A stretch of 64,000 bases of DNA from Chitinophaga vietnamensis (GTDB lineage: Bacteria; Bacteroidota; Bacteroidia; Chitinophagales; Chitinophagaceae), in the NCBI RefSeq assembly GCF_902167635.1, contig NZ_CABHMS010000002.1, positions 434,001 to 498,000 on the forward strand. Direction: 5' to 3'. Of this stretch, positions 27,422 through 50,556 are shown one piece after another. Each line of letters starts with the position of its first letter. The first letter of the stretch is position 1. Below the pieces are notes generated by a model. The model did not search any database, was not told the DNA's origin, and saw nothing but the letters and a program-made list of their open reading frames with translations. The translations under genes and the position numbers were made by a program.

Positions 27422-27471
27422 CTAAAACGCGCACAGCTTTATTTCCGTGAATAACAGCTGTCGCGTTTTAG
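27422..27471 (+). promoter_or_regulatory. large leader hairpin before the lipopeptide operon
   Basis: CTAAAACGCG-C-ACAGCT-TTATT (27422-27443) pairs with AATAA-C-AGCTGT-CGCGTTTTAG (27450-27471). This is a 21-bp stem with two single-base bulges and a 6-nt loop, ending 47 bp before the start codon at 27519. It could be an operator for a large dimer or an RNA structure controlling readthrough or translation. It has no T-run, so simple termination is unlikely. Confidence 0.6.
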
Positions 27472-27518
27472 TTCGGCATCCTGCCTATTGCATATTTAAT
27501 ATAGAACGAATTAACCCT

Positions 27519-29651
27519 ATGGATAATATGATACCCGGAAAACCAGTGGTGCTGCTCTCAGAAATGTTACTGCGCTTGCAGCACGAAGTAAATAAAGGCA
27601 TCACCTTCATCAAAAGTGGCGAACAGGAAGTGTTCGTAGCTTATGCACAACTCCTGCAACAAGCCAAACGATGCCTTTACTACCTGCAAAATGAAAGAGG
27701 ATTACAGCCCGGCGATGAACTGATCATACAGGAAGATGATAGTGAGATCATGCTCACCGCCTTCTGGGCCTGCATCCTGGGCGGCATCATCGCCGTACCG
27801 GTATCCACCGGCAATAAGAACGAACATAAACTGAAACTGCTCAAAATACGCGAAACGCTGAAGCGGCCCTACCTCTTTACAGGTAATGAACACCTGCAAA
27901 GGCTCATCGCCTTCATACAATCCGATGTACCGCAAACAGATGTGCTCTCCCTGCAACACAGCACCATCGATGCGGCGCTGTCTTTCGATCATCTCCCCGA
28001 TACCCCCGTATTACACACCGCTGCGGCGGATGATCTGGCCTTTATCCAGTACTCGTCCGGCTCCACCGGATCGCCCAAAGGCGTGATGCTCACCCATCGC
28101 AACCTCTTCTATAATACTACCGATATGGCCGAGCGCATGCAACTCAGCGCCGACGATAAAGAACTGAGCTGGATGCCGCTCACGCATGATATGGGCATGA
28201 TCTGTTATCATCTCACCGGCACCCTCACCGGCTGCATGCAATACCTCATGCCCACCTCGCTCTTCATCCGCCGCCCGCTGCTGTGGATGGAATCCGTGAA
28301 TAAACACCGCGCCACTATTTTATACTCGCCGAATTTCGGTTACGAATATTTCCTGGAAGCGCTGGACAACAAGCCTGCAACGGGCTGGGACCTCTCGTCT
28401 GTGCGCATGATCATCAACGGCGCAGAACCAATATCCGCGGAGGTATGCCGCCGCTTCACCACCCGCCTGCAACATTTTGGTTTATCACCCCTGAGCATAC
28501 AGCCAGGATACGGCATGGCAGAGGCTTCGGTATGCGTAACGCTCAATGCGCCCGGCACGCCCCTGAAAGAGCTGCACCTGCAACGCAATGCCCTCGGCAT
28601 CGGCGATGAAGTGATCAGCGAAGAAAATGCGCAGACCGGTACCATCGGCTTTGTAAACTGTGGTCTGCCCGCCAGGCATTGCCGCGTCAGGATCTGCGGC
28701 GATAAAGACGAGATACTGCGTGCCGGGACCGTAGGCCATATCCAGATCAGCGGCCTCAATGTAACAGAAGGCTACTACCGCAACGAAGCGGCCACCAATG
28801 CCATCCTCACGGCTGATGGATGGGTACGCACCGGCGATCTCGGCTTCCTGCTGCCCAGCGGTGAACTGGTGATCACCGGCCGGCACAAGAATATGATCAT
28901 CCTGCAAGGACAGAACTATTACCATCACGATATAGAACGCATCCTCTTCGACGTGCCCGGCATCGCAGCCGGAAAGATCGTCGCCTGCGGCATTCCGGGC
29001 GATAGCAACGAGAAAGAAAAACTGCTGCTGTTCGTATTGTTCAAAGGACAGCTCAACGCTTTTGCAACGCTGGAAGAGATGATTACAGAGAAATTGGGAG
29101 AGGTGCTGTCGATCATTCCGGATCATGTGATACCGGTGAGAGAAGTACCGAAAACAACCAGCGGTAAAATACAGCACTACGAAATGTTACAGCGCTTCCG
29201 CAATGGCGAATATGATGAAGCGCTGCAACAATTGCGGGAGCTGTCGGCCCAAAACATTATCGCCGCCTGGAAAGACGCTACGCCAGCGGCCCAGGTGCGC
29301 CATATCGAATCATGGCTGCGGGAGCAGGCAGCAGGCCTGATCAAAACAACGCCGGCAGCCATCGACCTCTTGCAGCCGCTCACCGACCAGGGGCTGAAAT
29401 CGTTGCTCGCCGTACAACTCAAAGGCATCATCGAACGGAAACTCAATATCACGGCAGGTATCGGCATCTTGTACCGGTATCCGTCCATAGAAAAACTGGC
29501 TGTATTCATTCACGGGCTGTTATTCCCGCCAGCTGCGGCATCGCCGCAAACGCCCGCTGAGGAAAGCCCGGCGCCCGAAGCGCTGCTCAACAAAGCAGCC
29601 GCTTTATCAGACGAACAGATTGCTTTACTCCTTAATGAAAACTTGTTATGA
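27519..29651 (+). CDS. fatty acyl-AMP ligase fused to ACP (lipopeptide starter enzyme)
   Basis: 710 residues from ATG 27519; an in-frame ATG at 27447 lies inside the leader hairpin and adds non-conserved residues, so I reject it. The adenylate-forming domain (about 1-560) has FIQYSSGSTGSPKGVMLTH, PGYGMAEASVCVTLN and TGDLGFLLPSGELVITGRHK, typical of FAAL rather than amino-acid A domains. A C-terminal ACP follows, with the pantetheine Ser at 628 in DQGLKSLLAVQL. It would activate a free fatty acid as acyl-AMP and load it onto its own ACP for the KS encoded next. The stop overlaps the next start (ATGA), so the two are translationally coupled. It matches the AL-ACP part of iturin/mycosubtilin synthetases. 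Confidence 0.92.
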   Translation: MDNMIPGKPVVLLSEMLLRLQHEVNKGITFIKSGEQEVFVAYAQLLQQAKRCLYYLQNERGLQPGDELIIQEDDSEIMLTAFWACILGGIIAVPVSTGNKNEHKLKLLKIRETLKRPYLFTGNEHLQRLIAFIQSDVPQTDVLSLQHSTIDAALSFDHLPDTPVLHTAAADDLAFIQYSSGSTGSPKGVMLTHRNLFYNTTDMAERMQLSADDKELSWMPLTHDMGMICYHLTGTLTGCMQYLMPTSLFIRRPLLWMESVNKHRATILYSPNFGYEYFLEALDNKPATGWDLSSVRMIINGAEPISAEVCRRFTTRLQHFGLSPLSIQPGYGMAEASVCVTLNAPGTPLKELHLQRNALGIGDEVISEENAQTGTIGFVNCGLPARHCRVRICGDKDEILRAGTVGHIQISGLNVTEGYYRNEAATNAILTADGWVRTGDLGFLLPSGELVITGRHKNMIILQGQNYYHHDIERILFDVPGIAAGKIVACGIPGDSNEKEKLLLFVLFKGQLNAFATLEEMITEKLGEVLSIIPDHVIPVREVPKTTSGKIQHYEMLQRFRNGEYDEALQQLRELSAQNIIAAWKDATPAAQVRHIESWLREQAAGLIKTTPAAIDLLQPLTDQGLKSLLAVQLKGIIERKLNITAGIGILYRYPSIEKLAVFIHGLLFPPAAASPQTPAEESPAPEALLNKAAALSDEQIALLLNENLL

Positions 29652-32600
29652 TCACCCGAGATGAAAGAATAGCGGAACTCAGTCCGCTGCAGAAAGCCTA
29701 TCTTAAAATTGAAGAATATAAAGCAAAGCTGAACAAGCTGGAAGATAAAAGCCGCCACTACAGCGATGTAGCGGTAATCGGCATGGCTTTGCGTTTCCCG
29801 CAGGCGGATACGCCCGCAGCTTATTGGGAAAACCTGGTGAATGGCCGTGATCATATCCGTCCTTTTCCCGAACAACGCGCCGCTGATGTTACGGATTACC
29901 TGCGTGCCAGCGGCAAGCCGGCCGTGACTTTCCGCGAAGCGGCCTATCTCGACGAGATCGATCATTTCGATCACCGCTTCTTCAAATTCAAACAGAAAGA
30001 AGCCGCGCAGATGCACCCCCTGCAACGCCTGTTATTACAGGTGTCGTGGCAGGCAATGGAAGATGGCGGCTACCTCGATAACAGTGATGAACAGTGCCGC
30101 ACGGGCGTATACCTTGGTATCTCCGGTGACATCACCTATAGTCAATACCTCGATATGATCGCTGCCAGCGATCCGCAGTTAGGCCCGCTTGCACTTACCG
30201 GTAACAACAATGCCATCAGTTCCAGCCGCGTATCTTATTTCCTCGATCTGAAAGGTCCGGCCATCACCATTGATACGGCCTGCTCTTCTTCGCTGGTGGC
30301 GATTCACCAGGCCTGCAAGGCTTTGATGAATGGCGACTGTGAAATGGCGCTGGCAGGCGGCGGCCGCGTGTACCTGGTGCCTGAAAAAGGGAGGTATGAA
30401 GTAGGCTTTGAATCGCCCGCGGGCAGAACAAAAGCATTCGACAATGCCGCTGATGGCGCTGGCGTAGGCGAAGGCGTGGCGGTGGTATTACTCAAACCGC
30501 TCGACAAAGCCATCGCTGATGGCGACCGTATACACGCTGTGATCAAAGGCTCCGCCATCAACCAGGACGGCACCTCTGCGGGTATCACCGCGCCTAATCT
30601 CGCCGCGCAGGAAGCCGTATTGAAAAGCGCCTGGCAAGCTGCGGGCATCACGCCAGATACGATCACGTACATCGAAACACATGGCACCGGCACTGCGCTC
30701 GGCGACCCTATTGAGTTCCAGGCATTGCAGGAAGCCTTCGGTACGCAGGCGCCTGCCGGACAATGCGCGCTCGGCGCCGTGAAAAGTAATATCGGCCATC
30801 TCTTTGAAGCCGCCGGTATTGCAGGATTGATCAAATGTGTGCTGGCACTGCAACACCGCCAGCTGCCACCGCTGATCAATTATCATACGCCTAACCGCGA
30901 AATAAAATTAGACGCTTCTCCTTTTTATATCAACACCACCAATGTAGACTGGAACCCGCCAGGGCTGCGCCGTTGCGGCGTCAGCTCCTTTGGTATCAGC
31001 GGTACCAATGCACATGTGGTGCTGGAAGAATATACGCCCGCATTGCCGCATACCAATGGCGCCGCGGTTGCGCCACAGTTGTTTGCTTTGTCGGCCGCCA
31101 GCCGGGAAGACCTGCTGGTACTGGCCGCAGCCTATGTGGCCTGGCTGGGCGCTAAAACGGATGCCGACCTCGAAAGCGTCTGCTATTCCACTAATACCGG
31201 CCGCGCGCACTATCCGTGGCGATTGGCGGTGGTAGTGGATTCAGTCGCGCAGTTGCAAGAGGCGTTGCGCAAGCCCGAAGCAATTTTACAGGAAGCGGCC
31301 AGTCGCTCTCGCATCAACGGCTATACGAATATACAGGAGCTGGCAGCCTTGTATATGGAAGGAGGGATGATCAAATGGTCGTTATTGTATAATGGCAAGA
31401 AGATACAGAAGATCAAACTGCCGCCTTATCCGCTCAACCCTGTGCGTTGCTGGGTAACTTACGACCCGTCGAAAACCGCGGTGACAGCAGCGCTGGCGCC
31501 AGCGGCGGCTATAACGCCAACGTATACACGCGAATCAGTGATCGCCGCCCTGCGTATCATGATCGCAAAAGATACCGACCTGCGGCCGGAAGATATACAG
31601 GAAGATGCAGACTTTTTCCAGCTGGGCCTCGACTCGCTCATCATCATGCAGTTGATACAGGGCATCCGCAAAGAATGGCAATTGCAGCTGGAGATGTCGC
31701 AATTTTATGAGAAGCTGAATACGCTGCGTTTACTCACCGATCATCTTCTCGCCAATGCCAATATTACAACAACAGCACCGGTGCAGGCCGCGCCAGTGGC
31801 GGCCAATACCGTAGCGGCCAAACCCGCACAAATCAATTACTACGTACCTTATAAAGAAGTACAGAAAAAATCGGATCATAATCTTACGCCGCAACAACAG
31901 CAGCACCTGCAACAGCTGGCAGCGCGTGTAAATCAGGCCACCGCGAAGAGCAAAGCCTCCACACAGCAGTATCGCAGCGTGCTGGCCAATAACAGGAATG
32001 TAGCCGGTTTCCGCCCCGAGCTGAAAGAGATCACCTACCAGATCATCGCGGAAAGCGGCAACGGCGCCAATATCACCGACCTCGACGGCAACCGTTATGT
32101 AGACCTCACCATGGGCTTCGGCGTAAACTTGCTGGGGTATAATCCAGAGTTCATCAAAGCCGCACTGATGGCCGAGTTACAGAAAGGCTTCCCCGTAGGC
32201 CCGATGGTAGAAACTGCCGGCAAGGTAGCCACGCTGATGCATGAAATGACCGGCGTAGAACGTGTAGCGTTTTACAATTCCGGCTCCGAAGCCGTCATGG
32301 TAGCGCTGCGACTGGCAAGGGCCACCACCGGCCGTAACAAAGTGGTGCTGTTCAAAGGTTCCTATCATGGTACTTTCGATGGCGTACTGGCGCTCGCCAG
32401 CGCGCTCGATCCGGCCTCTTCTATCCCGCTGGCGCCGGGCATTGCAGACAATTACGTGAGCAATGTGACCGTGCTGGATTACGCTACGCCGGCATCGCTG
32501 GAATTTATCCGCGCGCATGCGCATGAACTAGCCGCCGTACTGGTAGAGCCGGTACAGAGCCGCCGCCCGGATATCCAGCCGCGCGATTTCCTCCATGCTA

Positions 32601-34579
32601 TCAGGGAGATCACCACAGCTGCCGGCGCCGCCATGATCATGGATGAGGTGATCACCGGCTTCCGCATCCATCAGGGCGGAGCGCAGGCCTGGTTTGGCAT
32701 CAAGGCAGACCTGGTGACCTATGGCAAGATCACCGGTGGCGGCATGCCCATCGGCATCGTAGGCGGTACCGCGAAATTTATGGATGCGGTAGATGGCGGT
32801 ATGTGGCAGTTCGGAGATCAATCCTATCCCGATAAGCCCACCACCTTTGTGGCAGGCACTTTCAACCAGCACCCGCTGGCCATGCAGGCGTCTTTACAGA
32901 TGCTCACCTACCTCAAACAACAGGGGCCGGCCTTACAGGAAAATCTCAATGCCCGCACCGCTGCACTCGCGGAAAGGCTCAACAAATATTTTGCAGAAAA
33001 ACGTGTACCCGTTAGCGTAGTACATTTCGGTTCGCTGTTCCGCTTTGTGCTGAAAGGCAACTGGGAGCTGTTCTACCAGCACCTGCTGGCCAACGGCGTA
33101 TATGTGTGGGAAGGCCGCAACTGCTTCCTCTCCACCGCGCATACCGATGAACACATAGAGTACATATACAACGCCGCTGTGCGCGCCATCAATGAAATGC
33201 TGGAAGGCGGCTGGGTAAGCGCCGAACAAAACGTACAGGCGTCACTGTTAGCCGTGCCCTTTACGGAAGAACAGGAGCAGCTCTATGCCCTTGCGGTATC
33301 TGATCCGCATTCTTCCAGCGCCTTCAACGAAAACCAGGTGGCCTCCCTGCAAGGAACGCTTGATATTGCCGCCTTGCAGGAAGCCGTACAAACGGTCGTA
33401 AACCGCCACCAGGCGTTGCGTACCGTGAAAGTGAACGAGAAAGGGATGTGGATCGCGCCGAAAGTGGAAGCATCTTTCCACCTTGCGCAAGGGCCGGAAC
33501 TGGCTGCCATCGCGGAAGAAGGCAAAACCGTTACGGAATGGCTCACCGAAAAAGGCCAGCAGCCTTTTGATCTGCAACAAGGACCTTTCATTCGTTTCCT
33601 CTTGTTGGAAGAGGGGCCGCAGCTTCATCAATTGCTGATGACAGCGCACCACCTGGTAGCTGATGGATGGTCGATAGAGCTGATCTGGAGCGAGATTGGA
33701 CAGGCTTATTCTGCCATCACCGGTAAAGAGCCGGTATCCTTGCCTGCGCCCGTGCCGATCGCGGCCTTCAATCACTGGCAGGAACAGCAGCAGGCGCAAC
33801 ACAGCGCCAGCCGCGAGTTCTGGCAGCAAGAGTTTAAAAAAGATTATCCCGCCATACAATTACCTGCTGATCACCTGGCCGCCGCCAACAACGGCAAACA
33901 GGGCGACAGCTTCACCCTCACCATCGAGCCGGAACTGAAAAAACAATTGCAGGCATTTGCCCAACAGGAAAAGATGACGCTGTTCAACATCATGCTGGCA
34001 GCCTATAACATCCTGCTGTATCGCCTCTCCGGGCAAGACACTTTTGTGATAGGTATTCCGTCTGCCGGTCAGGCGCAAATGGGAGAGGCCTGCCTCGCCG
34101 GGCAATGCGTACGCATGTTGCCTTTCTATAGCCAGGTACAGCCGGATAAAAGCATCCGTGATTATTTACTGGAGATACGTACACGTTTGTCGGATATCAT
34201 CCGCCATCAGCATTGTTCCTTCAATGCCTTGCTGGAAGCGGATACGCAGCTGGCGCCGCCGCGCATCGCTACCGAGATAGATATGAACAGCGTGAAGAAT
34301 CATTTCCGTTTCCGTGATCTCGGCGTAGCCGTGTCTTTCCCGCCGGTGCAATATGTGAAGTATGATCTCAGCATCAGCATCATCGAGTTGGATGAACAAT
34401 TGTATGCGGGCTTCTACTTCAACACCAATCTGTTCAACCGGCAAACCGTGGAGCACTGGGCATCGTGTTATACCAGCCTGCTCGCCGACATGGCCGCCGA
34501 CCCCGCAAAAGCAGCAGGGGAGCTGGCCATGAACGATGAAGAAAGCGAACGTATTTTTTCTGCCTGGAACAATTTGTAG
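29648..34579 (+). CDS. PKS-NRPS hybrid: KS-ACP-aminotransferase-C, AT-less
   Basis: 1643 residues. The KS (about 40-460) has its active Cys212 in DTACSSSL, then HGTGTALGDP and NIGHLFEAAG. The KS is followed by a linker, but no AT domain: nothing resembles GHSxG and only about 170 residues precede the ACP. The ACP Ser is 663 in LGLDSL. A class III PLP aminotransferase (about 770-1200) has Lys1027 in YGKITGGGMP and IMDEVITGFR. A C domain ends the protein, with HHLVADG from H1334. This layout (FAAL-ACP, then KS-ACP-AMT-C) is that of MycA/ItuA, which extends a fatty acid by one malonyl unit and aminates the beta-keto group to a beta-amino fatty acid. A malonyl transferase must come in trans (FenF in mycosubtilin); none is in this window. 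No KR, DH or MT is present. Confidence 0.93.
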   Translation: MITRDERIAELSPLQKAYLKIEEYKAKLNKLEDKSRHYSDVAVIGMALRFPQADTPAAYWENLVNGRDHIRPFPEQRAADVTDYLRASGKPAVTFREAAYLDEIDHFDHRFFKFKQKEAAQMHPLQRLLLQVSWQAMEDGGYLDNSDEQCRTGVYLGISGDITYSQYLDMIAASDPQLGPLALTGNNNAISSSRVSYFLDLKGPAITIDTACSSSLVAIHQACKALMNGDCEMALAGGGRVYLVPEKGRYEVGFESPAGRTKAFDNAADGAGVGEGVAVVLLKPLDKAIADGDRIHAVIKGSAINQDGTSAGITAPNLAAQEAVLKSAWQAAGITPDTITYIETHGTGTALGDPIEFQALQEAFGTQAPAGQCALGAVKSNIGHLFEAAGIAGLIKCVLALQHRQLPPLINYHTPNREIKLDASPFYINTTNVDWNPPGLRRCGVSSFGISGTNAHVVLEEYTPALPHTNGAAVAPQLFALSAASREDLLVLAAAYVAWLGAKTDADLESVCYSTNTGRAHYPWRLAVVVDSVAQLQEALRKPEAILQEAASRSRINGYTNIQELAALYMEGGMIKWSLLYNGKKIQKIKLPPYPLNPVRCWVTYDPSKTAVTAALAPAAAITPTYTRESVIAALRIMIAKDTDLRPEDIQEDADFFQLGLDSLIIMQLIQGIRKEWQLQLEMSQFYEKLNTLRLLTDHLLANANITTTAPVQAAPVAANTVAAKPAQINYYVPYKEVQKKSDHNLTPQQQQHLQQLAARVNQATAKSKASTQQYRSVLANNRNVAGFRPELKEITYQIIAESGNGANITDLDGNRYVDLTMGFGVNLLGYNPEFIKAALMAELQKGFPVGPMVETAGKVATLMHEMTGVERVAFYNSGSEAVMVALRLARATTGRNKVVLFKGSYHGTFDGVLALASALDPASSIPLAPGIADNYVSNVTVLDYATPASLEFIRAHAHELAAVLVEPVQSRRPDIQPRDFLHAIREITTAAGAAMIMDEVITGFRIHQGGAQAWFGIKADLVTYGKITGGGMPIGIVGGTAKFMDAVDGGMWQFGDQSYPDKPTTFVAGTFNQHPLAMQASLQMLTYLKQQGPALQENLNARTAALAERLNKYFAEKRVPVSVVHFGSLFRFVLKGNWELFYQHLLANGVYVWEGRNCFLSTAHTDEHIEYIYNAAVRAINEMLEGGWVSAEQNVQASLLAVPFTEEQEQLYALAVSDPHSSSAFNENQVASLQGTLDIAALQEAVQTVVNRHQALRTVKVNEKGMWIAPKVEASFHLAQGPELAAIAEEGKTVTEWLTEKGQQPFDLQQGPFIRFLLLEEGPQLHQLLMTAHHLVADGWSIELIWSEIGQAYSAITGKEPVSLPAPVPIAAFNHWQEQQQAQHSASREFWQQEFKKDYPAIQLPADHLAAANNGKQGDSFTLTIEPELKKQLQAFAQQEKMTLFNIMLAAYNILLYRLSGQDTFVIGIPSAGQAQMGEACLAGQCVRMLPFYSQVQPDKSIRDYLLEIRTRLSDIIRHQHCSFNALLEADTQLAPPRIATEIDMNSVKNHFRFRDLGVAVSFPPVQYVKYDLSISIIELDEQLYAGFYFNTNLFNRQTVEHWASCYTSLLADMAADPAKAAGELAMNDEESERIFSAWNNL

Positions 34580-34598: not shown

Positions 34599-36065
34599 AT
34601 GAACATCAGATCAGGAAAGATTTTACCTGCCGTAGCTGCAGATAAGATAGCCGTGATATATGGCGCTACCCGTCTCACTTATGGCGCATTGGCCGCCGAA
34701 GTGTGGAACAACGTAGTGCTCCTCAAAGTAACCGCCGGCAGGCCGGTATTCATCATCGCCAGCGATCCCGTGAAACGCGTAGTGCTGGCCCTCAGCGTGA
34801 TAGAGGCCGGCGGCTATTGCTGCTTCCTTCATCCGCAGGCGGATGATACTTTCAAACAACAGGTGGCCGCCTGGCCCGACGCCGTGGTGCTCACCGAAAA
34901 AGACCATAGCGCGCAGCTGGCGCATCCCAACAAGATCATCTACGACGCACAGGGATACATTATCCCTTCCACTCTGGTGATGGACGAAGCTGCACCACCT
35001 TACGCCACACAGGGCGGCATCCTGCTGCGCAGCACGCATGCGGCGCCTGCGGCCTTCCTCGTGGAACAGCCTGCCCTGGCCGAACACCTGGAACATACCA
35101 TCCGCGAGTTTGGCATCAATGAAAATGAACAATTGCTTACGGATACCAGGCATCAATACCACGACCTGCTGGAATGGCTGCTGCCGGCCATCGCCGCCAA
35201 AGCAACCATCCATTTCATGACGAATGAATGGCAGCCGCATAACAGCCAGGCATTGCTCAAACTCAATGTACATGCACTGCGCGAATGGCTGCATCATCCG
35301 GAAAGATATGCGCACATTGCTGCGCACCGCCTTGTGATCAGCAGCGATCGTAAAGTGAACCGCCATCTCCTCAAAGCCTGGCGCAAACAGTACCCGCACA
35401 TCCCCGTGGTGTCGCATACCTGGCAACCCAATGGCCTGCCCATCTCCGTTGCTAGCGGCCATCTCGATGCGGAAGAAGAAAGCCACATCGCCGACAGCAT
35501 TCCTTTGCACAAGCCTTTCGGCAAAACCCGCATCATGGTGCTGGACGAACAGAAAAGGGCCACGCCGGTGAATGTGAAAGGCAGCCTGCTCGTACAACAT
35601 AATTGTCTCGTACGCCCGGTGATGTTCAAAGCGCACAATGCGCCGGCCGTACCCACAGGATACAATGCCCGCTTCGTTTCTGGCGGAAAGATACAGTTGA
35701 TCAACCAGCAACACCGCGAGCTGCAACACGGCAACCAGGTATTTGCACCGGATGAAACAGAAGAAATCGTACAGGCGCACCCGTTAGTATACCATTCGGC
35801 CGTTGTACAATTTTTCCATGAAGGGGCCAGCACGATTGCCGCCTTTGCCGCGCCCCGCGCCGGCGAACGCCTTACGCCCGCAAGTCTGCGCCAGTGGCTG
35901 AGCGTGCACATCCCCGCGGCGCGCATGCCCAGGTATTTTGTGGTGCAGCCTTCTTTGCCGCTCCTGCCGGATGGCAATGTGGATACGGCTTTGCTGCAAT
36001 TGCCGCCCGACCGCTACGATAGCCAGGCTGCCGCCAGCGAAAGCGAAAGCCGCATCATCGCCATC
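34599..36065 (+). other. degenerate, probably inactive adenylation domain
   Basis: About 490 residues align with an A domain from its start (LTYGALAAEVW, VIEAGGYCCFLHP), and the right length is kept with no stops. The catalytic motifs are gone. The P-loop YTSGSTGxPKG is replaced by ILLRSTHAAPAAF, and the YGPTE region by SHTWQPNGLPI. There is no Y-x-TGD motif and the QVKIRG hinge is lost. The final NGK becomes DGNVDTALL, so the A10 lysine is missing. The frame has been maintained, which suggests a structural role. Confidence 0.88.
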
Positions 36066-39000
36066 TGGAAAGAAACCCTGAAACTGGACAATATCGGCCC
36101 GGCCGATGATTTTTTCGCGCTCGGCGGCCACTCCCTGCTGGCCACCCGCACCATCGCTGCTATCAACGCAGCCTTTGGCAGCAGCTTGTCTTTAAAAGAT
36201 ATTTTCATTCATAGTACGCCCGCATTGCTTGCCGCCCGCATTGCCGCGGATACGGCACGCAGCAGCGCCGCCCGCCCGGCGCCACAGCCCCGCGAAGGAC
36301 GGATACCACTGTCTTTTTCACAGGAGCGGGTGTGGTTCATCCACCGCCTGCAAGGCAGCATTCCTTTTCACCAGACCGGATGGCTGAAACTATCGGGCAA
36401 GCTAGATATCGCAGCGCTGGAACATGCCCTGCTGGGCATTGTACAACGCCATGAGGTGATACGTACGCTCATCACCGAACAAGACGGGGAAGCCTTCCAG
36501 CAAGTGATCCCCGCTGATGGCTGGCAGCTGCAATATAAGGATGCTGCGGGTTTCGACGAACGCCATTTGCAAGACCTGCTCAATGAATGCCTCCTCATAC
36601 CTTTCGACCTGCGCACAGATTTCATGTTGCGCGCTACCCTGATCCGCCGCGCGGATGATGAACACCAGCTACTGCTGGTGATGCATCATATCGCCACCGA
36701 TGGCGGCTCTTTCCCGGTGATCATGCAGGAGCTGGTGACGCTGTATGTAGCGCATACAGAACAGCGCGCAGCAGAGCTGCCGCCGCTGCCTTTGCAATAT
36801 GCCGACTATGCCATCTGGCAACGACAGCACCTCAACGCTGCGGTGCTCGACCGCGAGGTAGATTACTGGAAGCAGCAACTGGCGGGCCTCTCGCCATTGG
36901 AACTGCCTACCGATTTTGCCCGGCCAGCCATCCAGAGCACGGCAGGCGGCATGGTATGCATGACCCTCGAAAAAACACTTTGCAACCAACTCAACCTGCT
37001 GGCGCGCCAGGAAGGCGTTACCCTGTATGTATTGTTGTTGTCTGCCTTTAAAATATTGATGTCGCGCTACAGCGGCCAGCAGGATATCTGTGTAGGCGTG
37101 CCCGTAGCCAACAGAACACATGCCGAACTGGAGCCGCTGGTGGGCTTCTTCCTCAACCTGCTCGCCATCCGTACGGATATGGACGGCAGTGAAAAAGTAC
37201 ACGACCTCTTACTAACGGTAAAGGATACACTGATGCAGGCCTATGCCCACCAGGAAGTGCCTTTCGAAAAAGTAGTAGGCGTGCAGCGCGACCTGAGCCG
37301 CAGCCCTGTGTTCCAGGTGCTGTTTACGCTGCACAGCGGCGGCGGCGCGGAACATTTCCGTATCAAAGACCTTGCCCTGAGCGAACTGGACATGGAAGAA
37401 AGAGCCATCCAGTTCGACCTCGACGTGGCGGTGGTAGAAACCAATGGCGCCTTGCAGGTGAATTTCGGCTATTGCAGCGACCTGTTTAAAAGAAGCACGA
37501 TCCTGCGCATGGTGCAGCATTTCCGCCAGCTGTTGTTGTCGATACTCGATAATCCCTATGGCAAGGTAGCGGCGCTGCCCATGATCACGGCCGAAGAAAC
37601 CGCACTGCTGCATAGTTTCAACGATAACGCGCTGCCTTACCCGCTGCAACAAACGATCGATGAGCTGATAGATGAAACGGTAGCACGTTATCCCAATGCA
37701 GTGGCTATCAAACATAACAATAACGTGGTCGACTATACGCAGCTGAAACAACATGCGGAGCAGCTGGCGCAACATCTGCTGCTCTCCGCGCAGCTGCAGG
37801 AAGAAGAGATCGTAGGCGTATTGTGCGACCGCTCGCCGCTCTTGCCCACGGCGGCTTACGGCATCTGGAAAGCGGGAGGCGCCTATCTGCCCATCCACCC
37901 GGAATTGCCGGAAGAGCGCATGAAAATGATCCTCGAAGATGCAGGCGTAAAAGTCATCATCTCCGAAAGAAAATATGCCGCTATCGCAGCAGCATTAGCT
38001 GTACAGGTGATCTATTGCGATGAGCCATTGCCTGCGGCAGATGATTTTAAGAAGAAGATCACCGGTGCAGACAATACCCGGCTGGCCTATGTGATCTACA
38101 CCTCCGGTTCTACCGGCAGGCCAAAGGGCGCTATGGTGGAGCATCGCGGGCTGATCAATCATCAATATGCCCGTATCCGTTCGCTGGAAATAGATCACCG
38201 TTGCCGCATTGCGCAGAACGCTTCCCAGAGTTTTGATATTTCCATTTTTCAGATGTTCGCCGCCCTCTTATGCGGCGGCACTACCGTGATCTACAGCCAG
38301 GATGTTGTATTACGGCCGGATGAATTTTTACGGCGCGTATCAGCAGATGGCATTACCCTGATGGAAATTGTACCAGGCTACCTGTCGCTGATACTGGACG
38401 AGCTGCCGGAAAACCGGCAGGAGCCCCTGTTCCCGGCCTTGCAATACATGCTGGCAGGCGGGGAGACGCTGAAGAAAACGCTGGCGGCCCGCTGGTTTGC
38501 CGCCTTCCCGCATATTAAACTGGTGAATGGCTATGGACCTACCGAGGCATCCGATACCGTAACACAGTATATCATGCAGGAAACGCCTGCAACAGACAGC
38601 ATTTCCATTGGCAAGGTATTACCCAACCTCAACGCCTATATCGTAGACAAGCACGGAGCGCTTTGCCCGCCGGGCGTTCCCGGCGAACTGTGGGTGTCTG
38701 GCGCAGGTGTGGGCCGCGGCTACGTGAACGACCCTACGAAAACGGCGCAATCATTTATCAAAGATCCATTTAATAAAGATGGGGGTCGCCTTTACAAAAC
38801 GGGCGATCTCGTCAGATACCTGCCTGACGGTAATATTGAGTTTATAGGGAGAAAAGACCATCAGGTGAAGATACGCGGATACCGTATCGAGCTGGGGGAA
38901 ATTGAGCAACGCCTCAACAGCTTGCCGGGCGTAAAGGAAGCCATTGTAATGGACAGGGAAGGAAACGACCGCCAGCTGGCCCTGTACGCTTATGTTACGC

Positions 39001-42000
39001 TGAACAGCGCCCGCACTACCGATGAACAAACCATGAAAGCGCAGCTGGGTAATAGTTTACCGGCTTATATGGTGCCTGCACATATCATGGTGCTGGATGC
39101 TTTCCCCTTAACGACCAATGGCAAGGTAGACCGCCGGGCATTGCCCATGCCGGATGCTGCCGATGCCGCCGTTAAAGCCATGGTAGCGCCCCGCAACCAT
39201 ATAGAAGCCGGCATGGCTGCCATCTGGCAACGATTGCTCAACATTGCCGCCGTCAGCGTTACCGCTGATTTCTTTGAGCTGGGCGGCCATTCCCTGCTGG
39301 CCGTGCGCGTGCTGTCGGCCATCCGGAATGAACTGGGACTGGATATTAGTATCAAAGATTTCTTTACGCATACTACCATCGAAGCATTGGCAGCGTATAG
39401 CCGTCACAGTGAGACAGCGGCGCTTGCCGCTCATCCGCCGCTGACGGTGCAGGAACGCGGCGTGTTCATCCCGCTGTCGTTCTCGCAGGAGCGCCTCTGG
39501 TTTATCGACAAATTCAAAGGCACGCAAGCCTATCACCTGCCATTCCTGCTGCAACTCAATGGCGTAGCAGATGTGAGCGCCCTGCAATATGCTTTACAGG
39601 AAACGGTGAATCGCCATGAGGTGCTGCGTACCCTCATCCGCGAAGAGAATGGTAAAGGCTACCAGCACATTTTGCCCCCTGGCGGCTGGCAACTGGAATT
39701 TGTTAACGCTGCGGCCTTCCCCACCGAAGCGGCCTTACAGGAATTTATCTATCAAAGTATACAAACGCCTTTCGATCTCGCCAATGATCATCCGCTGCAA
39801 GCCACGCTGATCAGCCGCGACAGGGAGGAACACCTGCTGCTCATTATCCTGCATCATATTGCCGGCGACGGATGGTCGATACCATTGCTCGCAAAAGAAC
39901 TGGCCTTGCTGTACAATGCCCGCCTGCAACAGCGCATGGCGGTATTGCCCGAACTGGCCTTGCAATATGCCGACTATGCCATCTGGCAACGGCAGCATAT
40001 CAAAGAGGAAGTGCTGGCCAAACAATTGCATTACTGGAAAGAGCAGTTGTACGGCGTAGAGCCGTTACAGTTACCTACCGATTTCCTGCGGCCGGCCGTA
40101 CAAAGCAATCGCGGAGCGGTATTGCATTATCATCTTCCCAAAACCACGGTAGATGCGCTGGAGGCATTGTCGAAACAACAGGGCGTAACGCTCTTTACCA
40201 CTATGCTGGCAGCATTCAAGGTATTGTTGTTCCGGCATAGCAACCAGGAAGATATCTGTGTGGGCATACCCGTGGCCGGCAGGTTACAGCCCGAGCTGGA
40301 ACCGCTGATCGGCTTCTTTGTAAATACGCTGGCGCTGCGGAACAATCTCGCCGGCAACATATCTTTCGCGGAACTGTTGCAACAACTGAAGCAAACTACC
40401 CTCGACGCCTATACGAACCAGGACGTGCCTTTTGAAATGGTGGTAGACCAGCTCACCATCACCCGTGATATGAGCCGTAACCCTGTGTTCCAGGTGGCCT
40501 TCGGGCTGAACAACGTACCGGCGGCGAGCAGCGGCCTGGCGCTGGATCAGCTGATCGTGAAGGAAGTGGCGCTCGACCGCGAGCATGCGCGCTTCGATCT
40601 AACCTTCGAATTATTTGTAACAGAAGAAGGGCTGCAACTGGCAGTAGAATATTGCACCGATCTGTTTACGGCCACCACAGCGGCCCGCATGGCTGCGCAT
40701 TATCAACAGCTGCTGCAATCCATCCTGCAAGCAGTGGATACGCCGGTACTGGCCTTGCCGCTCTTGCCCGCCGGGGAATTACAACTGTTACATTCTTTCA
40801 ATCATACTTCAGCGGCTTTCCCGCTGGAAAACACTGCCACAGCCCTTTTCGAGGCAGCGGCTGCCAGATACGCCGCTGCCGCTGCCGTCGTGAATGGCGC
40901 ACGGTATCTGTCGTATGCAGAACTGGATCGCCGCTCAAACCAGCTGGCACATTACCTGCTACGTATAGGCCTTGGCGTTGGTAAACTGGCAGCGGTTTGT
41001 ATGTCGCGCTCCGAGCAGCTGGTGGTGAGCATTCTCGCCATCCTCAAGACTGGCGCGGCTTACGTGCCGGTGGACCCGGCTTACCCGCAGCAACGCATCG
41101 CCTATATCATGAGCGATACGGAAGCGGCCTTACTTATCCGCGATGATGCCTTTCAGCCTGCGGAAGGCAAGTGGCCACCGGTATTGCATATCAACGATGA
41201 TTGGGAAGCCGCCATCGCAGCGATGCCGCATACCGCTACAGGTGTGGATATCCGGCCATCGGACCTGGCTTATGTGATCTATACTTCCGGCTCTACCGGC
41301 GAGCCTAAGGGCGTGATGGTAGAACATCGTTCGCTGCTGAACCTCTGCTATTGGCATACTGCCGCCTTTAATGTAACACCCGCATCACGGGCTACGATGT
41401 ACGCCGGCATTGGCTTTGACGCCGCCGTGTGGGAGATATGGCCTTACCTGCTTCATGGCGCCGCGCTCTATCCCGTAGCGGAAGCCAGCAAACTGGATAT
41501 CGATTATCTGCTGGATTTCTTCCGGCATAACGGTATCACCCATACGTTTTTACCAACTGCCATCTGCGAACAGCTGGCAGATCATCCGGCGGAGCGGCTG
41601 CCCCTCATCCTCACGGGTGGCGATCAGCTGAAGAAAGCGGGCCGGCATCTGCCGGTGATCAATAACTATGGTCCTACGGAATCTACGGTGGTGGCCACTT
41701 CTATTGCCTTGAGCGCCATTGCGGAAACGGCGCCGATCAGCATTGGCCGGCCCATCAGCAATACGCAAATTTATATTCTCAACGATGCCTTGCAACTGAT
41801 GCCGCTGGGCGCTACCGGCGAAATCTTCGTAGGCGGCGATAGTCTCGCCCGCGGCTACCTCAAGCGCGAAGCGCTGACGGCAGAACGTTTCATCGCGCAT
41901 CCTTTCCAGGCTGGCGCACGCCTGTACCGCAGCGGCGACCTGGGCCGCTGGCTGCCCGATGGTACCATCGAGTTCATGGGCCGCGTAGATCACCAGGTGA

Positions 42001-44018
42001 AGATCCGCGGCTACCGCGTAGAGCTGGGCGAGATCGAAAATGTGATGCAGCAGAGCGGCTATGTGAACCAGGCCGTGGTGCTGGCACGCGAAGATAATGG
42101 CGGCCACAAACAGCTGGTAGCCTATGTAGTGCCGCAAGGCACGCTGGATAAAGAAGCCTTCACCGACTACCTCAAAGGCAAGCTGCCGGCCTATATGGTG
42201 CCCGCTGTGCTGGTGCCGCTGGAAAGCCTGCCATTGACGCCAAACGGCAAGATCGACCGCAAGGCATTGCCCGCGCCTGACCTAACGGAACTTAACGGAA
42301 ACGTATATACGTCGCCCCGCAATGAGCTGGAACTCACATTGGCAGGCATCTGGCAGGAACTGCTGGGCGTAGAGTGGGTAGGCATCCATGATAATTTCTT
42401 TGAGCTGGGGGGAGATTCCATCATCACCATACAGCTGGTGAGCCGGGCTAAACGTCTCGGCTATACGTTGCAAACCAAGGATGTGTTCAGCAACCAGACC
42501 ATCGCAAGGCTCGCAGCCGTGATGCAGGAGCGTATGGCCGTGCAGGCTGCCTTCGAGGCAGAGCAAGGCTTGCTCACCGGCAATGCCGGGCTGCTGCCCA
42601 TCCAGCAATGGTACCTCGATGGCGCGCCTGCCGAGGTATCACATTTTAATCAAAGCATTCTTTTGAATATCGATAAACAGGTAAGGCCTGCCGTACTCGA
42701 AAAGGTGATCGCGCAATTAATTGATCATCACGATGCCCTGCGCTTCGTATACACGCAGCAGGAAGGGCAATGGCAGCAGGCATATGGTCTCGCGCCGGAA
42801 GGCGTGCTGGTCGTGGAGCAGCTGGGTAAAGAAAATATCTCCCAACAGATCATCTCCCTGGAAGAAAAATACCAGCAAAGTCTTGATATCCATACCGGTG
42901 CTGTCATGCGCGTAGTGCTGATGCAAACACCGGCATCGGAGCCGTATAACCGTCTGCTCACCATCATCCATCATCTTGCGGTGGATGGCGTATCCTGGCG
43001 TATCCTGCTGGAAGATACCGAGCTGCTGATCACTGCGGCGATGAACAGCGAACATGCGGACCTGGGCCGCAAAACAGGCTCTTACCGTCAGTGGCGGCAA
43101 TCGCTGGAACTATATGCCAATACCGCCAGGCTACAACAGCAGCTGCCGTATTGGGAGCAGGTAACGAATGCCTACACCGCATTGCCGGTAGATAAAAACT
43201 ATACGAAGATGGTAACGGCAAAGGATATACGCAGTATTGCCGTATCGCTGGATCAGGCGCATACCCATCAGCTCTTGCAGGAAGTATCTAAAGTATACCG
43301 CACGGATATCAACGATATCCTGCTGGCTGCGCTCGCCGCCACCCTGGCCGATTGGAGCGATAGCGACCGCATAGTGGTAGGCCTCGAAGGGCATGGCCGT
43401 GAAGACATTGGCGGAGAGACAGATACCAGCCGCACAGTAGGATGGTTTACCAACCTCTATCCCGTATTGCTCGATGTATCCGGCGTTGACGGCGAGCGTG
43501 ACCTGGTACGCAATATCAAAGAACAGCTGCGCAGCATACCTGATAAAGGCATGGGCTATGGCGCATTGAAATATATCCGGCAGACGGAAAGTCTGCATGG
43601 TAAAGACCCTTGGGATATCGTATTCAACTATCTCGGTCAGCTCGACAACCTTGTGAGCCACAGCCGCTGGTTCAATGGCATGGACGAAGCCGATTCTTCC
43701 AATGCCAACGTAAGCGCGGCTAACCGGGTAGGGGAGAAGATCGCGGTAACGGCGATGGTGGAAAATGCGCAGCTCACGCTGGTATGGAACTACAGTAGCC
43801 GTCATTACAAAGTGTCCACCATCCGCGAACTGGCGGATAGCTATCTGCGTGTACTCGTGGCCGTTATACAGCATTGTATGGCGCAATCGGGCGCAGTGTA
43901 TACGCCATCGGATTATGGCCTCACCGCGGAGGTAAGCAACGAAGAGCTGGATCTCTTCTTCCTGCAGCAAGGCGCCACCGAAGAAGAGGACGATATGGAT
44001 AGCATATTGAATTTCTGA
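34599..44018 (+). CDS. NRPS, A*-T-C-A-T-C-A-T-E (first A degenerate)
   Basis: 3139 residues, 19 bp after the hybrid PKS-NRPS. The first A-like domain (about 1-495) has lost its core motifs (see separate entry) but is followed by an intact T (S512). Then C (HHIATDG at H696), A with code DIFELGGDTK (not recognised), T (S1565), C (HHIAGDG at H1752), A with code DAWFLGNVVK (a known Leu code), T (S2607 in GGDSI, the form typical before E) and an epimerisation domain with HHLAVDGVSWRIL from H2791. C domains open PLSFSQERVWFI and PLSFSQERLWFI, the LCL type. Predicted addition: unknown, X, then D-Leu. The C domain of the previous protein feeds the first T in trans-protein fashion. Confidence 0.93.
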   Translation: MNIRSGKILPAVAADKIAVIYGATRLTYGALAAEVWNNVVLLKVTAGRPVFIIASDPVKRVVLALSVIEAGGYCCFLHPQADDTFKQQVAAWPDAVVLTEKDHSAQLAHPNKIIYDAQGYIIPSTLVMDEAAPPYATQGGILLRSTHAAPAAFLVEQPALAEHLEHTIREFGINENEQLLTDTRHQYHDLLEWLLPAIAAKATIHFMTNEWQPHNSQALLKLNVHALREWLHHPERYAHIAAHRLVISSDRKVNRHLLKAWRKQYPHIPVVSHTWQPNGLPISVASGHLDAEEESHIADSIPLHKPFGKTRIMVLDEQKRATPVNVKGSLLVQHNCLVRPVMFKAHNAPAVPTGYNARFVSGGKIQLINQQHRELQHGNQVFAPDETEEIVQAHPLVYHSAVVQFFHEGASTIAAFAAPRAGERLTPASLRQWLSVHIPAARMPRYFVVQPSLPLLPDGNVDTALLQLPPDRYDSQAAASESESRIIAIWKETLKLDNIGPADDFFALGGHSLLATRTIAAINAAFGSSLSLKDIFIHSTPALLAARIAADTARSSAARPAPQPREGRIPLSFSQERVWFIHRLQGSIPFHQTGWLKLSGKLDIAALEHALLGIVQRHEVIRTLITEQDGEAFQQVIPADGWQLQYKDAAGFDERHLQDLLNECLLIPFDLRTDFMLRATLIRRADDEHQLLLVMHHIATDGGSFPVIMQELVTLYVAHTEQRAAELPPLPLQYADYAIWQRQHLNAAVLDREVDYWKQQLAGLSPLELPTDFARPAIQSTAGGMVCMTLEKTLCNQLNLLARQEGVTLYVLLLSAFKILMSRYSGQQDICVGVPVANRTHAELEPLVGFFLNLLAIRTDMDGSEKVHDLLLTVKDTLMQAYAHQEVPFEKVVGVQRDLSRSPVFQVLFTLHSGGGAEHFRIKDLALSELDMEERAIQFDLDVAVVETNGALQVNFGYCSDLFKRSTILRMVQHFRQLLLSILDNPYGKVAALPMITAEETALLHSFNDNALPYPLQQTIDELIDETVARYPNAVAIKHNNNVVDYTQLKQHAEQLAQHLLLSAQLQEEEIVGVLCDRSPLLPTAAYGIWKAGGAYLPIHPELPEERMKMILEDAGVKVIISERKYAAIAAALAVQVIYCDEPLPAADDFKKKITGADNTRLAYVIYTSGSTGRPKGAMVEHRGLINHQYARIRSLEIDHRCRIAQNASQSFDISIFQMFAALLCGGTTVIYSQDVVLRPDEFLRRVSADGITLMEIVPGYLSLILDELPENRQEPLFPALQYMLAGGETLKKTLAARWFAAFPHIKLVNGYGPTEASDTVTQYIMQETPATDSISIGKVLPNLNAYIVDKHGALCPPGVPGELWVSGAGVGRGYVNDPTKTAQSFIKDPFNKDGGRLYKTGDLVRYLPDGNIEFIGRKDHQVKIRGYRIELGEIEQRLNSLPGVKEAIVMDREGNDRQLALYAYVTLNSARTTDEQTMKAQLGNSLPAYMVPAHIMVLDAFPLTTNGKVDRRALPMPDAADAAVKAMVAPRNHIEAGMAAIWQRLLNIAAVSVTADFFELGGHSLLAVRVLSAIRNELGLDISIKDFFTHTTIEALAAYSRHSETAALAAHPPLTVQERGVFIPLSFSQERLWFIDKFKGTQAYHLPFLLQLNGVADVSALQYALQETVNRHEVLRTLIREENGKGYQHILPPGGWQLEFVNAAAFPTEAALQEFIYQSIQTPFDLANDHPLQATLISRDREEHLLLIILHHIAGDGWSIPLLAKELALLYNARLQQRMAVLPELALQYADYAIWQRQHIKEEVLAKQLHYWKEQLYGVEPLQLPTDFLRPAVQSNRGAVLHYHLPKTTVDALEALSKQQGVTLFTTMLAAFKVLLFRHSNQEDICVGIPVAGRLQPELEPLIGFFVNTLALRNNLAGNISFAELLQQLKQTTLDAYTNQDVPFEMVVDQLTITRDMSRNPVFQVAFGLNNVPAASSGLALDQLIVKEVALDREHARFDLTFELFVTEEGLQLAVEYCTDLFTATTAARMAAHYQQLLQSILQAVDTPVLALPLLPAGELQLLHSFNHTSAAFPLENTATALFEAAAARYAAAAAVVNGARYLSYAELDRRSNQLAHYLLRIGLGVGKLAAVCMSRSEQLVVSILAILKTGAAYVPVDPAYPQQRIAYIMSDTEAALLIRDDAFQPAEGKWPPVLHINDDWEAAIAAMPHTATGVDIRPSDLAYVIYTSGSTGEPKGVMVEHRSLLNLCYWHTAAFNVTPASRATMYAGIGFDAAVWEIWPYLLHGAALYPVAEASKLDIDYLLDFFRHNGITHTFLPTAICEQLADHPAERLPLILTGGDQLKKAGRHLPVINNYGPTESTVVATSIALSAIAETAPISIGRPISNTQIYILNDALQLMPLGATGEIFVGGDSLARGYLKREALTAERFIAHPFQAGARLYRSGDLGRWLPDGTIEFMGRVDHQVKIRGYRVELGEIENVMQQSGYVNQAVVLAREDNGGHKQLVAYVVPQGTLDKEAFTDYLKGKLPAYMVPAVLVPLESLPLTPNGKIDRKALPAPDLTELNGNVYTSPRNELELTLAGIWQELLGVEWVGIHDNFFELGGDSIITIQLVSRAKRLGYTLQTKDVFSNQTIARLAAVMQERMAVQAAFEAEQGLLTGNAGLLPIQQWYLDGAPAEVSHFNQSILLNIDKQVRPAVLEKVIAQLIDHHDALRFVYTQQEGQWQQAYGLAPEGVLVVEQLGKENISQQIISLEEKYQQSLDIHTGAVMRVVLMQTPASEPYNRLLTIIHHLAVDGVSWRILLEDTELLITAAMNSEHADLGRKTGSYRQWRQSLELYANTARLQQQLPYWEQVTNAYTALPVDKNYTKMVTAKDIRSIAVSLDQAHTHQLLQEVSKVYRTDINDILLAALAATLADWSDSDRIVVGLEGHGREDIGGETDTSRTVGWFTNLYPVLLDVSGVDGERDLVRNIKEQLRSIPDKGMGYGALKYIRQTESLHGKDPWDIVFNYLGQLDNLVSHSRWFNGMDEADSSNANVSAANRVGEKIAVTAMVENAQLTLVWNYSSRHYKVSTIRELADSYLRVLVAVIQHCMAQSGAVYTPSDYGLTAEVSNEELDLFFLQQGATEEEDDMDSILNF

Positions 44019-49149: not shown

Positions 49150-50556
49150 ATGTCCCGCTTTACAAAGTTTCACCTGGCTGAACAACCCAAGATAGTTACC
49201 CAAAGCATTCCCGGCGCTCGCTCACAGGAATTGTTGGCCTTGCAGCAGCAGATAGAAGGCAGCGTAGTATCCTATCCCCGCAGCAACCCCATTGCATTTG
49301 AACGCGCCAAAGGCGCTATCGTGGAAGACGTGGACGGCAACCAGTTTATCGATTTCTTCGCCGGCGCCGGCGTGGTAAACCTCGGCCACTCCAATGAAGA
49401 AGTGCTGGCTTATGTGACTGCACAGCAGGAGAAATTGATCCATGCGCTCGACTTCCCCACAGCCAATAAATTATCTGCCATACAAAAAATATTATCACAC
49501 CTGCCAGAACATTTGCAGGATCAATATAAGGTGAGCTTTGGCGGCCCTACCGGCTCCGACGCCATAGAAGCGGCGCTCAAGCTGGCCAAGATCAAAACCG
49601 GGCGCGATACCATCATCGCCTTCACCGGCGGCTATCATGGCATGACCGCCGGCGCGCTGTCGCTCACTTCTGATACCGCTTTCCGCAACCGCCTTACCTC
49701 GCTCACACCCAACGTGCACTTTGTGCCTTACAGCTATTGCTACCGTTGCCCTTTCAAGCTCGATGAAAGCAATTGCAAGATGGCCTGTGTAGACTACCTG
49801 CGCAATGTGCTGGAAAACGGCCACTCCGGCATTCCCAAGCCGGCGGCCATTGTGATAGAGCCTATCCAGGGCGAAGGCGGTAACATCGTGCCACGTGAAG
49901 GCTATCTCGAAGCGCTGGTGAAACTGGCGCATGCCCATGATGTGCTGGTGATATTTGATGAGATACAATGCGGCTTCTTCCGCTCCGGCGAGTTCCTCGC
50001 CTGGATGCATACAGACGCCGTGCCGGATATCATCACCATCTCCAAAGGCATTGGCGGCGTGGGTTTGCCGCTGGCGGGCCTTATCTACCGTAAGGAGGTG
50101 GAAGCCTGGGGCCCTGCTGCGCATATCGGCACCTTCCGTGGTAACCAGGCTAGTCTGGCAGGTACGAACGGCGCTTTCGACTTTGTAGATAAATATAACG
50201 TGAACGAGCACACGAAAGAAGCAGGGGAGTACCTGATGGAAGGTTTACGCGCCTTGCAGGCAGACAGCGCCTACATCGGCGATGTGCGTGGCCGCGGCCT
50301 GATGATCGGCGTGGAGTTCGTAAAAGATAAAAATACCAAAGAGCCATATCCTTCGCTGGTGAAGCGTTTCAGGAGCGAATGCCTGCAACGCGGCCTCATC
50401 TTTGAAGTGGGTGGTCACTATAATAACGTCGTGCGTTTTGTACCGCCGCTGATCATCACCACCGCCATCATAGATGCGGCCCTGGCCGTGATGAAAGAAG
50501 CCCTGGAAGTGAGCACGGCTGCCCTGAAAGAAGAAGGCCGACTGGCGCTCATCTAA
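49150..50556 (+). CDS. diaminobutyrate-2-oxoglutarate-type class III aminotransferase
   Basis: 468 residues. Fold-type I PLP enzyme with the family features VSFGGPTGSDAIEAALKLAK, TGGYHGMTAGALS, IFDEIQCGFFRSGEF and the cofactor Lys299 in ISKGIGGVGLPLAG. Overall it resembles EctB/Dat enzymes, which convert aspartate semialdehyde and glutamate to L-2,4-diaminobutyrate in the cytoplasm. The FRGNQASLAGTNGA segment is also typical. It lies in the middle of the NRPS operon (43 bp after one synthetase, 27 bp before the next), as Dab-supply genes do in other lipopeptide clusters. So a Dab residue in the product is likely, though no A domain here has a Dab code I recognise. The related beta-amino acid or ornithine aminotransferases are less likely. 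Confidence 0.85.
   Translation: MSRFTKFHLAEQPKIVTQSIPGARSQELLALQQQIEGSVVSYPRSNPIAFERAKGAIVEDVDGNQFIDFFAGAGVVNLGHSNEEVLAYVTAQQEKLIHALDFPTANKLSAIQKILSHLPEHLQDQYKVSFGGPTGSDAIEAALKLAKIKTGRDTIIAFTGGYHGMTAGALSLTSDTAFRNRLTSLTPNVHFVPYSYCYRCPFKLDESNCKMACVDYLRNVLENGHSGIPKPAAIVIEPIQGEGGNIVPREGYLEALVKLAHAHDVLVIFDEIQCGFFRSGEFLAWMHTDAVPDIITISKGIGGVGLPLAGLIYRKEVEAWGPAAHIGTFRGNQASLAGTNGAFDFVDKYNVNEHTKEAGEYLMEGLRALQADSAYIGDVRGRGLMIGVEFVKDKNTKEPYPSLVKRFRSECLQRGLIFEVGGHYNNVVRFVPPLIITTAIIDAALAVMKEALEVSTAALKEEGRLALI

Follow-up and report, generated by a model that had tools for sequence, protein, structure and literature searches.

The first peptide module of a nonribosomal peptide synthetase (NRPS) operon in Chitinophaga vietnamensis very probably contains a pseudo-adenylation domain that is catalytically dead but maintained by selection in a structural role. 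The module was found in a window of 64,000 nucleotides (assembly GCF_902167635.1, contig NZ_CABHMS010000002.1, positions 434,001 to 498,000), whose numbering is used throughout. The pseudo-adenylation domain, here called A0, occupies residues 1-476 of an open reading frame (ORF) at 34599-44018 on the + strand, in which adenylation (A), carrier (T), condensation (C) and E domains are arranged as A0-T0-C1-A1-T1-C2-A2-T2-E. Directly upstream lies a protein that joins a ketosynthase (KS), an acyl carrier protein (ACP), an aminotransferase and a condensation domain (C0). The succession of acyl-AMP ligase, KS, ACP, aminotransferase and C domain is that of a beta-amino fatty acid lipopeptide synthetase. 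Thirteen same-strand genes (27447 to 77718, beyond the window end) were treated as one operon, and G433, another genome of the genus, has counterparts of all 13 in matching order.

The original prediction of a degenerate A domain at this position was confirmed by motif alignment, by model scores and by a full-length profile match. On Pfam, A0 reached 34.7 bits for AMP-binding and 27.2 bits for AMP-binding_C, the two later A domains of the ORF reaching 528.6 bits together, and on the amino-acid adenylation model TIGR01733 (cut-off 317.4) A0 scored 37.7 bits, its G433 orthologue 30.9 and A1 428. Among NCBIfam models an amino-acid A model and an NRPS model lead the ranking for A0, all far under their cut-offs. 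Profile and motif comparison found none of the canonical motifs A3, A5, A7 and A10 in A0: the aligned positions read LLR-STHAAPAA (A3), SHTWQPNG (A5) and VPTGYNA (A7), A8 begins NQQHRELQHGNQ, and the A10 lysine is replaced by asparagine (DGNV). A3, A5, A7, A8 and the A10 lysine are absent from the G433 orthologue as well, with the frame open in both. Compared with a functional amino-acid A domain, A0 thus lacks the core motifs and retains homology over both the A core and the C-terminal sub-domain. A two-sequence profile of A0 and its orthologue aligned with canonical A domains over residues 14-477 on 14-494 (probability 99.7%, E 1e-25), the C-domain control giving a probability of 0.3%. The length of A0 is near that of its neighbours (461 matched residues vs 469-499), with a shortening between A6 and A7 (16 aligned residues vs 26-30). 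At its start A0 retains an alanine ahead of A1, the A1 motif LTYGAL and an A2-like EAGG; an alanine of that kind contacts A1 and the back of A4 in LgrA, in the part of the report cited here (PMC10212144). Membership of A0 in some other enzyme class was ruled out by its end-to-end alignment with A domains of the operon and related ones. Sequencing or assembly error and recent decay were ruled out by the same losses in an uninterrupted, 57% identical orthologue and by purifying selection.

Selection on A0 was estimated between the window and G433, the two genomes in which A0 itself could be compared. A ratio of nonsynonymous to synonymous substitution (omega) of 1 was rejected for A0 (likelihood ratio 178), and its sub-segments gave omegas of 0.13, 0.06 and 0.17, which are rough values, as saturated synonymous sites render the whole-domain omega of this pair meaningless. 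Conservation is shifted towards the N-terminal part: up to motif A2, 56 of 76 positions (74%) are identical vs 213 of 398 (54%) elsewhere (odds ratio 2.43, p = 0.0015). All eight active A ortholog pairs of the operon show the reverse, with odds ratios below 1 (p < 0.05 in four). The N-terminal part of A0 may face C0, and a stable conformation of a C-A didomain has been described in the cited section of another study (PMC8150014).

The aminotransferase-C arrangement was searched for in 79 genomes of the genus, yielding 45 matches in 32 genomes. All but one (E 2e-94, in a frame of 622 residues) were examined. Besides the window and G433 loci, ten (L027-L036) have a separate architecture, and in four (L037-L040) the protein stops after the aminotransferase. 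Among 28 further loci (L052-L079), 24 carry an A domain of 432-601 bits after C0, L079 shows none in its ORF, and three (L052, L053 and L054, from genomes G455, G424 and G413) carry a dead A domain of about 413 residues followed by an intact T0 (LGGNSI). Of seven named loci from other phyla, three (L017-L019) have C and A domains after the aminotransferase, and all of these A domains are intact. A dead A domain next to a post-aminotransferase C domain was found in five of 32 cases, in two lineages, window and G433 included; as the loci were chosen around aminotransferases, such counts apply to loci of this kind and not to genus-wide frequency. Three of the loci with the separate architecture (L027, L030 and L031, 3.3-4.5 kb) were read closely and encode an aminotransferase-C protein and an oxygenase-like gene product, followed by a protein that opens with a very weak C domain ahead of an A domain that looks intact.

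The loss of motifs is sharply delimited. Among the 133 A-T didomains in the loci collected here (exact copies removed), 126 keep at least three of four core motifs, two keep two and five keep none or one. These five score 37-55 bits, every other at least 330, and they are A0, its G433 orthologue and the three domains at the same position elsewhere, all five with the carrier serine kept. In a control from 143 T domains, 19 lacked a good A domain ahead, the five dead-A cases among them. The others include copies of dead-A cases (L086, L087), PKS-type carriers (PKS, polyketide synthase; the window ACP, its G433 counterpart, L042 and L083, with L084 and L085 assigned by likeness to L083) and carriers in ORFs cut at the locus end (L043, L051, L080-L082). 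At L023 (248-2041, +), 598 open-frame residues with no Pfam match at 1e-5 come before a T domain.

Relatives of A0 itself are rare. Among the 79 genus genomes they occur in the window genome and G433 only, and the second lineage in three of the 79. A scan of genome contigs found no wider relatives, and among 394 family, 395 phylum and 395 class genomes (overlapping samples) the window genome alone gave a match; as these searches used strict E limits and scored a capped number of candidates in each genome, they could overlook weak relatives. In plasmid records the matches were distant only, all below 60% identity (558 records for A0-T0, 1526 for aminotransferase-C).

In the three species of the second lineage (G455, G424 and G413), the dead A domain again directly follows KS, ACP, aminotransferase and C domain, here inside one protein and fused to its own C domain. 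Rather than at a fatty-acid start, the aminotransferase module of this lineage stands after NRPS modules within a longer assembly line. Between G455 and G424 the saturation of synonymous sites is lower (synonymous divergence, dS, about 0.6-1.5), and omega was 0.118 for the dead A domain (likelihood ratio against 1, 218), 0.076 for the C domain ahead of it and 0.077 and 0.065 for A1 and A2. T0 of this pair has an omega of 0.025 and a nonsynonymous divergence (dN) of 0.026, while T1 and T2 have an omega of 0.036 with dN of 0.033 and 0.026. The N-terminal shift recurs in the three dead pairs (odds ratios 1.69, p = 0.09; 2.03, p = 0.006; 2.09, p = 0.004), which are not independent of each other; in six active pairs of the lineage all odds ratios are below 1 (p < 0.05 in three).

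The original prediction had read the kept frame as a sign of a kept scaffold. This view gains from the frame and losses that A0 has in common with its orthologue in the uninterrupted G433 cluster, from omegas well under 1 and from an N-terminal shift of conservation seen in two lineages. Lost motifs, full-length homology, purifying selection and a constraint shifted to the N-terminal part are the reasons for regarding A0 as a structural part of the module. In both the window and G433 a gene boundary separates C0, at the end of one protein, from A0, at the start of the next, and the N-terminal part is the most conserved region of A0. This would suit an inter-protein adaptor that docks this protein (ORF3) to C0 of the upstream protein, and TomB does have an N-terminal degenerate carrier as adaptor, in the portion of the report cited (PMC11186497). 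Such an adaptor role is nevertheless very unlikely to account for A0. The conservation shift also occurs in the second lineage, where the dead A domain and its C domain are parts of one protein, so docking between proteins is not the general reason. In addition, the N-terminal domain of ORF3 is A-like and its carrier is intact, unlike the degenerate carrier-like N-terminus of the TomB type.

The sequences give mixed signals on a single ancestral dead A domain for the two lineages. The C0 domains of both lineages join in the tree (support 99/96) on long stems that call for a long-branch warning. Removing either lineage leaves the other grouped with an unchanged set of further members. In the aminotransferase tree the two lineages do not come together, and A0 resembles the second-lineage dead A domains no more than either kind resembles normal A domains.

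The second element of the module, T0, covers residues 477-548. The intact T domain with Ser512 described earlier was recovered at 51.7 bits for PP-binding, with the serine at 36132-36134 and the carrier extending beyond the end first noted to about 36242. T0 is probably a live carrier, as its serine motif is intact and as T0 is constrained in the second lineage; being intact and, in that lineage, strictly constrained, it is probably used. The C0 motif reads HHLVADG in the window and HHIVADG in G433, and HHxxxD is kept in 33 of 36 post-aminotransferase C0 domains compared, window and G433 included, a set with only three of the L027-L036 type. An inactive A domain beside an intact carrier and an intact C motif is the pattern of a module complemented in trans, and T0 would then receive its amino acid from an active A domain encoded in the operon. 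C0, with HHxxxDG intact, would subsequently link the ACP-bound beta-amino fatty acyl chain to aminoacyl-T0. As C0 is intact, the best reading is that one of the eight in-operon A domains does the charging, and such charging may quite possibly occur. The complete interpretation, a pseudo-A scaffold beside a live carrier charged in trans, is put forward tentatively. A1 adjoins T0 on the same protein and is, as a guess, the nearest loader candidate; that it is in fact the loader seems rather unlikely. If trans charging holds, a count of the eight active-looking A domains would fall one residue short of the product.

Several observations weigh against this interpretation. T0 is equally similar (42%) to T1, T4 and T7, so T-domain likeness singles out no loader, and no A domain stands out as one. 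The window C0 has unusual C5 and C7 motifs. A0 is 56.7% identical between the window and G433, the other eight A domains 55.7% (A7) to 82.8% (A6), which makes A0 the second least conserved of nine, with only the active A7 lower; the saturation of synonymous sites described above counts here too. T0 has the highest dN of all carriers T0-T8 in this comparison (0.289, followed by T4 with 0.280, others 0.125-0.249), and strict constraint on T0 is confined to the other lineage. The conservation shift of A0 could in part be a passive outcome of relaxed catalytic constraint. Finally, the second-lineage C0 motifs (HTIIADG, HAIIADG and HSIIADG) have lost the second histidine of HHxxxDG, which suits a relay better.

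In such a non-elongating relay, T0 would take the beta-aminoacyl chain from the ACP and hand it to C1 without ever carrying an amino acid, with A0 as a frame. We regard this as a less probable course of events, for which the three-species lineage provides the main argument: there the A domain and the C histidine are both lost, yet T0 is as constrained as active carriers. The joint branching of both C0 lineages on long stems points the same way, but it may reflect long-branch attraction, though this wider clade is also where either lineage is placed when analysed singly. The window C0, for its part, retains HHxxxDG, and we know of no C domain that moves a chain to a free carrier thiol, which counts against a relay. 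Non-elongating modules of polyketide synthases do hand chains on. It is conceivable, if somewhat speculative, that a kept pseudo-A domain marks a class of non-elongating hand-off modules after the aminotransferase in beta-aminoacyl lines, an NRPS counterpart of non-elongating KS modules; the pseudo-A domain, and in one lineage the C domain too, would be only a scaffold, and T0 would present the chain of the PKS-type ACP to the first true peptide C domain. The original prediction had offered either trans charging or a silent relay. The intact C0 and T0 of the window favour the former, the lost C0 histidine of the second lineage favours the latter there, and the sequences do not decide between them.

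Alternatively, the module could be skipped, C1 taking the chain straight from the ACP, so that C0, A0 and T0 would be spacers or relics. Faster evolution of A0 than of most A domains and the position of T0 as the fastest carrier by dN (window against G433) agree with this, and module skipping reportedly occurs in myxochromides. Skipping is unlikely all the same, given the intact C0 motif and T0 serine. Moreover, T0 of G455 and G424 is 94.4% identical vs 74.8% for the dead A domain, which is unexpected for a skipped carrier.

A loader might also be encoded elsewhere in the genome, as an A domain or A-T protein, for which albicidin, enduracidin and ramoplanin set precedents in the part of the report cited (PMC8949500). 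No stand-alone amino-acid A, A-T or aminoacyltransferase protein is present among the 13 operon genes. A search of the window genome (G000) and G433 with A1 as query (E limit 1e-5) found no stand-alone A-T protein common to both, so the eight in-operon A domains remain as candidates. The A domains recovered lie in frames of at least 1103 residues, and those read belong to multi-domain NRPS proteins; G433 proteins with a single A domain, where domains were read, are A-T-C, C-A-T or C-A-T-C. One A-T protein of 1329 residues, on another contig of the window genome, speaks for a loader from elsewhere, but no G433 match resembles it and it has no evident counterpart there, while the dead A0 is common to both genomes. 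The remaining short-frame matches are weak. Six (at most 49 bits, frames of 597-741 residues) include the fatty acyl-AMP ligase protein of the operon itself and an acetate-CoA ligase, the pair present in both genomes, and the other three (frames of 597-658 residues) received no name at the limit used. In WS9326A, according to the cited passage, the trans-acting A genes lie within the cluster (PMC7539972). A loader from outside the operon is judged improbable.

Dead or missing A domains with live carriers are already known, and the module described here resembles several of them in part. The comparisons that follow refer to the sections of the reports cited. In albicidin an inactive A domain is complemented in trans by a stand-alone A-T protein, and like A0 the albicidin and cystobactamid systems have an A domain in line with poor core motifs, compensated in trans (PMC8949500); unlike albicidin, this operon has no stand-alone amino-acid A-T protein, and the peptide module of A0 is the first one behind a beta-amino fatty acid unit. 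The fungal siderophore synthetases SidD and SidC also combine a dead A domain with a live carrier, and in SidD the loader lies within the same system, as its A1 loads T1 and T2 past the dead A domain (PMC10192304). The SidD dead A domain is, however, without about 290 N-terminal residues, whereas A0 is of full length with its N-terminal part most conserved. The bacterial capreomycin module CmnI likewise has no A activity of its own and is loaded by the A domain of another module, CmnA-A1, which charges diaminopropionate (Dap) onto CmnI-T and its own carrier in a trans-iterative manner (PMC12400406); CmnI has no A domain at all, while a pseudo-A domain is kept here. Module 1 of the kistamicin NRPS is a first module with a defective A domain too, but there the A core sub-domain is missing, which is not the case in A0 (PMC6565677). 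The chitinopeptins of Chitinophaga are 3-amino fatty acid lipopeptides like the product type predicted here, and those of C. flava carry an extra Dap between the beta-amino fatty acid and N-methylvaline, making a basic residue at that place chemically plausible (PMC9248904). They differ in having 14-15 residues vs eight active-looking A domains here, hydroxylation genes where this operon has glutamate mutase and a diaminobutyrate (Dab) aminotransferase, and a C-starter in three of four clusters where this operon has a PKS start.

Coordinates of the module and of the surrounding operon are collected in Table 1.

Table 1. Features of the operon in window numbering (G433, orthologous genome)
Feature	Position	Strand	Evidence
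FAAL-ACP (fatty acyl-AMP ligase-like and carrier)	27447..29651	+	Pfam AMP-binding 191 bits, PP-binding; 67% identical orthologue in G433
KS-ACP-aminotransferase-C0 protein	29648..34579	+	Pfam ketoacyl-synt, Aminotran_3, PP-binding, Condensation; 73% orthologue in G433
C0	about 33257-34558	+	Condensation domain, HHLVADG intact
A0, full-length pseudo-adenylation domain (predicted)	34599..36026	+	motifs A3, A5, A7, A8, A10 lost
T0 carrier	36027..36242	+	PP-binding 51.7 bits; Ser512 intact (36132-36134), invariant in alignment
C1-A1-T1-C2-A2-T2-E, remainder of A0-T0 protein	36306..44018	+	domain calls
A1, active-looking A domain nearest to T0	37668-39155		
C3-A3-T3-E protein	44364..49106	+	in same operon as A0
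Diaminobutyrate-type aminotransferase	49150..50556	+	TIGR00709 405.4 bits, cut-off 401.6
C4-halfC-A4-T4-C5-A5-T5-C6 protein	50584..58866	+	domain calls
halfC-A6-T6-C7-A7-T7-C8-A8-T8-E-C9 protein	58900..63999, runs past window to 70416	+	domain calls

The first protein of the operon fits acyl activation, its NCBIfam acyl ligase models giving 311.5 and 310 bits (below their own cut-offs) vs 140.8 for the amino-acid A model, and the diaminobutyrate-type aminotransferase is read as precursor supply. The remaining genes encode an ABC transporter, a glutamate mutase pair, a thioesterase, a phosphopantetheinyl transferase and a TonB-type outer-membrane protein. The mutase pair (MutE and a B12-binding subunit, 72084-73841, beyond the window) suggests supply of 3-methylaspartate. 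The genes immediately flanking the operon have no match in the compared G433 region, where only farther NRPS genes match, as paralogues. Specificity codes, taken from positions and reference codes that we assume to be correct, look standard for A2 (Leu), A4 (Thr) and A5 (Val), while those for A1 (Dab-like), A3 and A6 are presumed readings amounting to guesses.

Some further features of the NRPS genes deserve mention. The final NRPS protein (end 70416) closes with E-C, no thioesterase domain being noted at its end, and the terminal C domain may serve in release or cyclisation of the product. Half condensation domains, consisting of the C-terminal lobe only, lie directly ahead of A4 (51916-52587) and A6 (58909-59631), the latter preceded by a full C domain that closes the upstream protein; both are kept in G433 (47% and 53% identity). 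A third stands at the N-terminus of a 3559-residue NRPS protein in the neighbouring cluster (-16413 to -5734, - strand). In the neighbouring NRPS gene at 2628-15065 (-), two C-A-T modules have an exact 1448-base stretch in common and agree overall at 2650 of 3102 bases, a sign of recent duplication or gene conversion.

Among the matches listed from open-licence literature (subscription journals lie mostly outside), no report was found that describes a dead A domain behind an aminotransferase module or the way such a domain is conserved. As products are predicted by counting active A domains, the number of residues becomes uncertain by one where a live carrier stands next to a dead A domain. 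The five genomes form a natural series, with C intact and A dead in one part and the C histidine lost and A dead in the other, for non-elongating chain transfer by an NRPS module. The conservation shift also offers a possible means of telling scaffold A domains from active ones, which would be useful where module exchange depends on the C-A platform.

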